From NCBI GenBank assembly GCA_021768085.1, contig JAETOJ010000011.1, positions 1 through 64,000 on the forward strand: 64,000 bases of DNA. The letters run 5' to 3'. This DNA is from Bacillota bacterium. Its GTDB lineage: Bacteria; Bacillota; Clostridia; Oscillospirales; Oscillospiraceae. The notes under the pieces were generated by a model. It worked only from the letters and a program-made list of their open reading frames with translations, was not told where the DNA came from and did not search any database. A program made the position numbers and the translations under genes. How positions within the stretch are numbered: the stretch's first letter is position 1; the number at the start of each line of letters is the position of its first letter. Below, piece by piece: positions 11,471 to 40,752 of this stretch.

Positions 11471-11776
11471 CTATTTTACCAGCTTAATTCGCTTCTCCCT
11501 GGGCTTGCCGTGGGTCTCCCGGTAGAGCACGAATTTGGTGCCGATGACCTGCACCACCTGGCTCCGGGTGGCGCGGGCCAGCTCCTCCGCCCCCTCCCGG
11601 GGGGACAGGGGGCTGTTTTCCAGCACCTTGCCCTTGATCAGCTCCCGGGCCTCCAGGGCGTCGTCCGCCTGCTTGATGAGGTTTTCGCCCACGCCGTCCT
11701 TGCCGATGTGGACAATGGTGTCGATGTCATTGGCCAGCCCCCTCAGCTGTGCCCGCTGCTTGCCGGTCAATCCCAT
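11471..11776 (-). CDS. yhbY: YhbY family (CRM-domain) RNA-binding protein
   Basis: MGLTGKQRAQLRGLANDIDTIVHIGKDGVGENLIKQADDALEARELIKGKVL. Confidence 0.95.
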   Translation of the reverse strand: MGLTGKQRAQLRGLANDIDTIVHIGKDGVGENLIKQADDALEARELIKGKVLENSPLSPREGAEELARATRSQVVQVIGTKFVLYRETHGKPREKRIKLVK

Positions 11777-12099
11777 GGGTCATTCCTCCTGGTGTTGTTC
11801 CGCTTTTGCTCAGCGGACTCCCGCTGGGCCGCCTGCTCGCCTTCCAGCGCGCTCATCTGCTTCTCCCACTTCTCCCAGTATTCCTTGCCACCGGAGCGTA
11901 CAAATTCCTCCGAATTCACCCAGCTCTCCAGATAGCCGCAGGCGCAGCACAGATAGCGGTTTACCGGCACAAAATACTGAGGCTTGCTGGACAGCAGGCC
12001 CTTGATCCGCACCCGGGGATCCGAACCATCGTTCAGGTTTCCCCGCATCACAACAATTTCCCGTCCGCCGCACTTGGGGCAGACCCCTGTGTGTTTCAT
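11767..12099 (-). CDS. zinc-ribbon hypothetical protein
   Basis: CPKCGG...CCACGYLE double Cys-x2-Cys pattern. Confidence 0.75.
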   Translation of the reverse strand: MKHTGVCPKCGGREIVVMRGNLNDGSDPRVRIKGLLSSKPQYFVPVNRYLCCACGYLESWVNSEEFVRSGGKEYWEKWEKQMSALEGEQAAQRESAEQKRNNTRRNDPWD

Positions 12100-40091: not shown

Positions 40092-40097
40092 GCGCAA

Positions 40098-40139
40098 AGA
40101 ACCCGGCTGCCTGTCCATGCAGGCGGCCGGGTTCTTTAC
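40098..40139 (+). terminator. intrinsic terminator after the his/BI-1 operon
   Basis: AAGAACCCGGC...CCTG-tccatg-CAGG...GCCGGGTTCTTT. Confidence 0.8.
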
Positions 40140-40145
40140 AAAATA

Positions 40146-40166
40146 AAAACGTCCCCAAGGGGACGA
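40146..40166 (-). terminator. intrinsic terminator of microprotein unit
   Basis: Minus strand CGTCCCCTTGGGGACGTTTTTATTTT. Confidence 0.75.
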
Positions 40167-40200
40167 GTCATCTTTGCCTGTAAAGTTTCCGCAATCAGCT

Positions 40201-40281
40201 TCAGCGCTCGCTGGGAACGGTAATCTCTCCGGCGAAGATCAACTCGTCGATATCAACGGGAACAGCACAGATGACCTTCAT
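40201..40281 (-). CDS. putative 26-aa microprotein
   Basis: MKVICAVPVDIDELIFAGEITVPSER*; SD AAAGGAGG 8 nt before ATG; own promoter and terminator flank it. Confidence 0.55.
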   Translation of the reverse strand: MKVICAVPVDIDELIFAGEITVPSER

Positions 40282-40313
40282 CGCCATCGCCTCCTTTCAA
40301 ACTGGTGTGACAT

Positions 40314-40342
40314 AGTATAACAGTTTTCGGCTGGATTGTAAA
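40314..40342 (-). promoter_or_regulatory. sigma-A-type promoter for microprotein unit
   Basis: Minus strand TTTACA (40342-40337) - 17 nt - TATACT (40319-40314). Confidence 0.75.
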
Positions 40343-40480: not shown

Positions 40481-40484
40481 GCTG

Positions 40485-40752
40485 GCAGCGCGAGGATGAG
40501 GATCAGTACCCATGGGCCTCCTGCCCAGAGAGCCCCCGGCTTGGTGGAAGGGGGAGAGGAGCCCTTGGCGAATACCCCTCGGAGCGGCCGCCTGAACGGG
40601 ACGATCCCCAGTAGGGCCGGACGGGTGCGCCCGGTACAGCGCCGGGGTTCTGCTGGGAACCCCTTGAGGCCGCTTTTGTGAGAAAGCGGCAACACAGAGG
40701 TGGTACCGCGAGCTTTCGCCCTCTGTCCCTAAGGGACAGGGGGTTTTCTGTT
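40485..40752 (+). ncRNA. T-box leader (tyrosyl) upstream of tyrS
   Basis: Long structured leader; canonical T-box AGAGGTGGTACCGCGAG at about 40696-40712 followed by terminator CCCTCTGTCCCT-AA-GGGACAGGGGGTTTTCT; possible TAC specifier in GATCAGTACCC. Confidence 0.92.

Follow-up and report, generated by a model that had tools for sequence, protein, structure and literature searches.

Does a complete set of expression signals around a reading frame of only 26 codons mark a gene and, if it does, what is the product for? The case considered here lies in a window of 64,000 nucleotides (the whole stretch of DNA analysed) from a member of the Oscillospiraceae, where the space between the his/BI-1 operon and the T-box of tyrS had been predicted from the letters to carry a minus-strand promoter, a Shine-Dalgarno sequence, a 26-codon frame and a terminator. 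All four are present as the original prediction described them. The sigma-A-type promoter (40314..40342, minus strand) consists of a −35 element TTTACA at 40342–40337, a 17-nt spacer and a −10 element TATACT at 40319–40314, with 10/12 consensus matches and a TG preceding the −10. The Shine-Dalgarno sequence AAAGGAGG (40290..40297, minus strand) stands 8 nt before the ATG at 40281, from which the frame (40281–40204, stop codon TGA at 40203–40201, minus strand) encodes the 26-aa peptide MKVICAVPVDIDELIFAGEITVPSER. An intrinsic terminator, CGTCCCCTTGGGGACG followed by TTTTT (40145..40165, minus strand), was recovered by a terminator scan, giving a predicted transcript from about 40307 to 40145, approximately 160 nt in length. 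Beyond it, an inverted repeat at 40096..40139, assigned to neither strand, would terminate transcription in both directions, ending the convergent his/BI-1 operon and giving a second stop for read-through.

On the opposite flank, the tyrS leader matches the Rfam T-box model at 40484–40726 (E 3.7e-19); its score of 86 bits lies just below the Rfam gathering score of 93, so that an automatic scan misses it. Six tRNA genes lie elsewhere in the window, on the minus strand at 1929–2511.

Signals of this kind are modest evidence when taken alone, because similar sites turn up in shuffled sequence: a scan over 1.5 kb returned 2 promoter-like sites (0.5 in shuffles) and 6 terminator-like sites (1.5 in shuffles). 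It is conservation, rather than the signals, that places the locus beyond chance.

Selection on the reading frame

A translated search covered 60 relatives and recovered the peptide from most of the 37 genomes that belong to the genus of the window. Once more distant forms were added to the results of that search, orthologues were counted in at least 27/37 genus genomes, named records with the motif including Pseudoflavonifractor and Candidatus Enterenecus. Orthologues within the genus show the same order of promoter, Shine-Dalgarno sequence, frame and terminator, and most are convergent to BI-1, even where tyrS no longer adjoins. Within the narrower clade of the window (22 genomes), the position of the promoter is kept in 22/22 members and a Shine-Dalgarno sequence is present throughout. 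A second in-frame ATG lies upstream at 40287; the clade keeps only that at 40281.

Constraint within this clade was confined to the coding frame, with pN/pS of 0.27 compared with 1.31 and 2.47 in the alternative frames (0.26 for the coding frame when recalculated in the comparison of frames), and for the whole set of sequences the corresponding values were 0.42 against 1.09 and 1.17. Clade differences fell predominantly at third codon positions (751, compared with 370 and 224 at the others), and changes in length of the frame were multiples of three. Frame-specific constraint, in-frame insertions and deletions and homologues across the family together show, by the pattern of substitution, that the reading frame is under selection, and hence that this is a protein gene and not purely a small RNA. 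The outcome that had been named in advance as pointing to an sRNA, in which homologous regions keep promoter and terminator and lose the frame, was looked for, and the frame was found to be kept; the proposal of a dedicated gene is therefore borne out. A chance reading frame lying within a non-coding sRNA would account for the promoter, the terminator and the possible RNA structure described below, but it is contradicted by the same three lines of evidence, and its probability is negligible.

The peptide is acidic, as had been proposed (net charge −3.6, pI 4.2), whereas its description as ‘not hydrophobic’ was inexact: its GRAVY is +0.71, compared with a hydrophilic median of about −0.3 to −0.9 for the rest of the family. 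The stated dissimilarity to type I toxins held, given the charge, the acidic core and a transcript that has no promoter-like site on the opposite strand.

Predicted pairing within the transcript

In the predicted fold, the reading frame pairs with its own 3′UTR and with the 5′ arm of the terminator, although the whole transcript (z −1.33) is not unusual in stability. The 5′ half of the long intramolecular stem, GACGAGUUGAUCUU, lies within the frame (40235..40248, minus strand) and the 3′ half, AAGAUGACUCGUC, overlaps the 5′ arm of the terminator (40162..40174, minus strand); both halves are kept in the clade. All 22 clade transcripts were predicted to fold better than versions with synonymously recoded frames (mean z −1.47) and 21/22 better than versions with shuffled 3′UTRs. 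When the comparison was repeated anchored on the terminator, the counts were 21/22 (recoded frame) and 20/22 (shuffled 3′UTR) within the clade, and outside it the signal was weak (mean z −0.36 and −0.66). For a stem of 32 pairs between frame and 3′UTR, pairing was kept in 92.7% of cells and five pairs had changes in both partners, a result reached by 12/500 shuffles, in an alignment that was fitted to the structure and composed of related genomes; RNAalifold, given the plain clade alignment, recovered little beyond a GACGAG/CUCGUC stem. A family-wide pairing between the terminator arm and either the Shine-Dalgarno sequence or the frame was also considered, and was rejected because swapped partners did equally well.

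Local mRNA structure is probable in the window clade on these predictions, short of proving an sRNA function, and a part RNA function there is possible, though no more than moderately supported. Such a function would make it a dual-function RNA, an alternative already raised in the original prediction, in which the peptide-coding transcript would also be a base-pairing regulator or a self-regulating structure, as SR1 is in Bacillus. A selected reading frame, the folding advantage of the clade transcripts over both kinds of control and the five doubly changed pairs are what this would lead one to expect; the structure-fitted alignment, the kinship of the genomes, the weakness of the signal outside the clade and the failure of the terminator arm to outperform swapped partners all count against it, and we regard it as unlikely, if the most credible of the alternatives.

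Bases 40162–40165 belong to both the long stem and the terminator, which are therefore mutually exclusive. Such an arrangement would also suit an attenuator, in which the frame would be a leader peptide, its translation choosing between the two structures and thereby controlling a gene downstream. A same-direction gene does follow the terminator in Pseudoflavonifractor relatives (L032 and L035), and prfB follows some members of the family. The gene that comes next in the window, as in most genomes of the clade, is however BI-1, which is convergent and set apart by a further terminator; the same-strand regulated gene directly downstream that characterises the Trp and TnaC types is absent, downstream genes vary by lineage, and runs of any one amino acid are absent from the peptide. 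Attenuation is accordingly an improbable explanation, well behind a dual-function RNA.

The C-terminal module and its two promoter classes

The conserved unit of the family comprises the 17 C-terminal residues, D[IV]D[DE][LM]I[FY]...S[EDQ][RK]-stop, in which the opening D-[IV]-D-[DE]-[LM]-I-[FY] is followed by a variable stretch, usually a P, and then S-[EDQ]-[RK] and the stop codon. The window copy of this module, DIDELIFAGEITVPSER, is encoded at 40204..40254 (minus strand). The distance from first Asp to C-terminus is fixed, at exactly 17 residues in 39/42 members of the sigma-A class and 42/52 of the spore class, while the N-terminus is free in both length and sequence. Members are mostly 18–49 aa long and their adjoining genes are unrelated; the window gene, a stand-alone short gene with a Shine-Dalgarno sequence and the module, is one of them.

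A first profile, built from 14 genus peptides, gave weaker matches through family and order, which on read-out repeatedly yielded this short peptide. The second, A2, has 42 rows and matched 149/246 good genomes of the family; the window peptide scores 4e-11 against it, being itself one of the rows, and relatives outside the row set score as well. At the level of the class, A2 matched 10/341 genomes, the non-family ones mostly from f43, and elsewhere in the phylum it gave chance-level matches only, in longer ORFs. In these searches the module was found in two families besides Oscillospiraceae, and the rest of the phylum essentially lacked it. Sixty further profile matches, fetched by coordinate, read out in 60/60 cases as short ORFs with the module, in a procedure that favoured ORFs in which a Ser lies close to the end and so slightly overstates the invariance of that Ser; L065 and L070 were the only two loci dropped from the set. 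Members from genus g121 (L034, L039, L050 and L057) carry a few residues beyond the S-[EQ]-R motif, for example SQRSHVF and SERLTGWPSPL, indicating that a free C-terminus is not always required. A scan of the source genome with GCATATACTG returned a paralogue, together with mostly chance-like places.

Profiles from Pfam, NCBIfam, PHROGs and PADLOC matched the peptide at chance level at best, no solved structure in the PDB matched it, and a literature search for the motif found nothing, in keeping with the suggestion of an undescribed small protein. The published small-protein catalogues GMSC (PMC11364881) and sORFdb (PMC11796252) may nevertheless contain such peptides as clusters without a name. 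A viral origin was considered, and the strict form of the motif had no match in viral contigs, a weak negative in that the window peptide does not itself fit the strict pattern. We class these peptides as a new and previously unnamed family, here called the DxDDLIF family, which belongs to Oscillospiraceae and a few families close to it and falls within a known kind, the conserved bacterial microproteins.

No general clue to function came from the neighbours, as no partner, receptor or enzyme gene recurred among the family loci. In several genera the micro-ORF lies just upstream of prfB (L034, L039, L050, L057, L113, L162 and L170), often after a metallophosphoesterase gene.

Upstream of the start codon, the family divides. 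The sequence GCATANN[AC]T was found at −80 to −15 of the start in 46/139 distinct loci, compared with 1.1% expected under a first-order model, and alignment on GCATA often revealed GTCAT, GCAT or GAATA approximately 20 nt further upstream, a spacing equal to that of sigma-E-type spoIVA promoters in the same genomes (GTCATATT...CCATACATA). The promoters recognised by sigma-E and by sigma-K in C. difficile have very similar −10 elements (CATATTAT, CATATAAT) and different −35 elements, that of sigma-E promoters being ATA (PMC3789822). The spore class has a promoter of mother-cell type, which would suit sigma-E or sigma-K alike, and from this sequence we infer that its copies are under sporulation control. 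The cut-offs used for classification leave 45 loci without a class, although inspection by eye clearly places some of these in the spore type. The second large group, the window gene among them, has promoters of sigma-A type; outside the spore-promoter class, a terminator followed 80/87 loci, compared with 65/408 control windows.

Two further features recur at these loci. A terminator stem of CCACACC/GGTGTGG or CCACGC/GCGTGG is found across genera in many sigma-A-class members (for example, L134, L152, L132 and L049), and the palindrome GTTACATTTGTGTAAC or a close variant, perhaps an operator, lies upstream of the promoter in L066 and L068, with similar sequences in L041, L046, L047 and L051.

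The source genome possesses one member of each class. The paralogue, MKKDKRFQSPGNPPQDVDDLIFSGQTDARISQR (L119, contig C90 of genome G000, near 11750–11794), has a sporulation-type promoter, GTCATT-N15-GCATATACT, whereas the window copy has TTTACA-17-TATACT in place of the CATA-type −10 with ATA or AC −35 of mother-cell promoters. Window-type and spore-type copies are found together in G000 and G003 and, in another genus (g27), in G231 and G440. SpoIVA was detected in 85/87 tested genomes with the peptide, compared with 26/32 without a detected peptide (Fisher p ~0.005, kinship ignored), an association that is weak because SpoIVA is near-universal in the family; the co-occurrence fits a family of spore-formers and is no proof of a role in sporulation. 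One near-complete genome, G184, has the peptide and no detected SpoIVA.

Proposed function and known systems

What might so short a protein do? We consider it probable that the locus is a monocistronic gene for a cytosolic microprotein, a sigma-A-class member of the family, that works as a short docking peptide. A fixed short acidic-hydrophobic motif, a fixed C-terminus and the want of any recurrent neighbour gene suggest docking, a step that we infer only from the shape of the conservation. AlphaFold2, run without an alignment, predicted a short helix at IDELIF only (pLDDT about 87), with extended ends, a picture that suits a docking motif better than a domain. One conserved partner protein would be bound by the acidic-hydrophobic turn D-I-D-E-L-I-F together with the C-terminal S-E-R, and its activity would change as a result. 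During growth this would be the work of the sigma-A copy, and in the mother cell that of the sporulation copy. In the window clade the predicted fold-back of the mRNA from frame to terminator arm may tune translation, termination or stability.

A short precursor with a conserved C-terminus could also represent a secreted signalling peptide of the Phr or PapR type, with the TVPSER part as mature signal. Inspection by eye, however, shows no signal sequence, conservation is highest in the acidic D-x-D-D-L-I-F core, the C-terminus varies little between lineages, and no recurrent receptor gene adjoins; a secreted signal is thus very improbable, more so even than attenuation. Starting instead from the docking peptide, a wider and distinctly tentative proposal is that across Oscillospiraceae a single 17-residue module is made from two microgenes, one under sigma-A and one under a mother-cell sigma factor, and reaches the same target before and during sporulation.

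Oscillospiraceae are abundant and poorly studied gut bacteria, mostly with sporulation genes, and a microprotein present in most of their genomes, partly under sporulation-type promoters, offers a concrete handle on their cell biology. A gene below the usual length for annotation can still be family-wide, and a unit of 17 residues is small enough for direct capture of its partner.

In way of working, the gene comes closest to SR1/SR1P and to the small Bacillus proteins of sporulation, but no known family was found to include it. SR1/SR1P of Bacillus subtilis is a dual-function sRNA with a small protein, and is linked to sporulation in that SR1 inhibits translation of kinA (PMC8501984, PMC8152036). 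The window gene is alike in being a short stand-alone transcript with a small ORF; it differs in that mRNA targets are known for SR1, and GapA as the protein bound by SR1P, and also in that the DxDDLIF family includes a paralogue with a sporulation promoter. To our knowledge, SR1P and the window peptide have no apparent relation in sequence. The Bacillus sporulation microproteins SpoVM (26 aa), MciZ (40 aa) and CmpA (37 aa) are similarly very small, and spore-class members here are, like them, apparently made in the mother cell, but the promoter of the window member is of the sigma-A and not of a sporulation type, and the DxDDLIF family is acidic; we know of no motif that the three have in common with it. 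A resemblance of another kind, and a resemblance only, is to the C-terminal tip of SSB (e.g. DFDDDIPF), a docking motif in which acidic residues are followed by hydrophobics and a Phe, as they are in the DxDDLIF core: SSB ends on that Phe, whereas the F here lies within the peptide, 10 residues short of its end, and the chain closes with S-[EDQ]-[RK].
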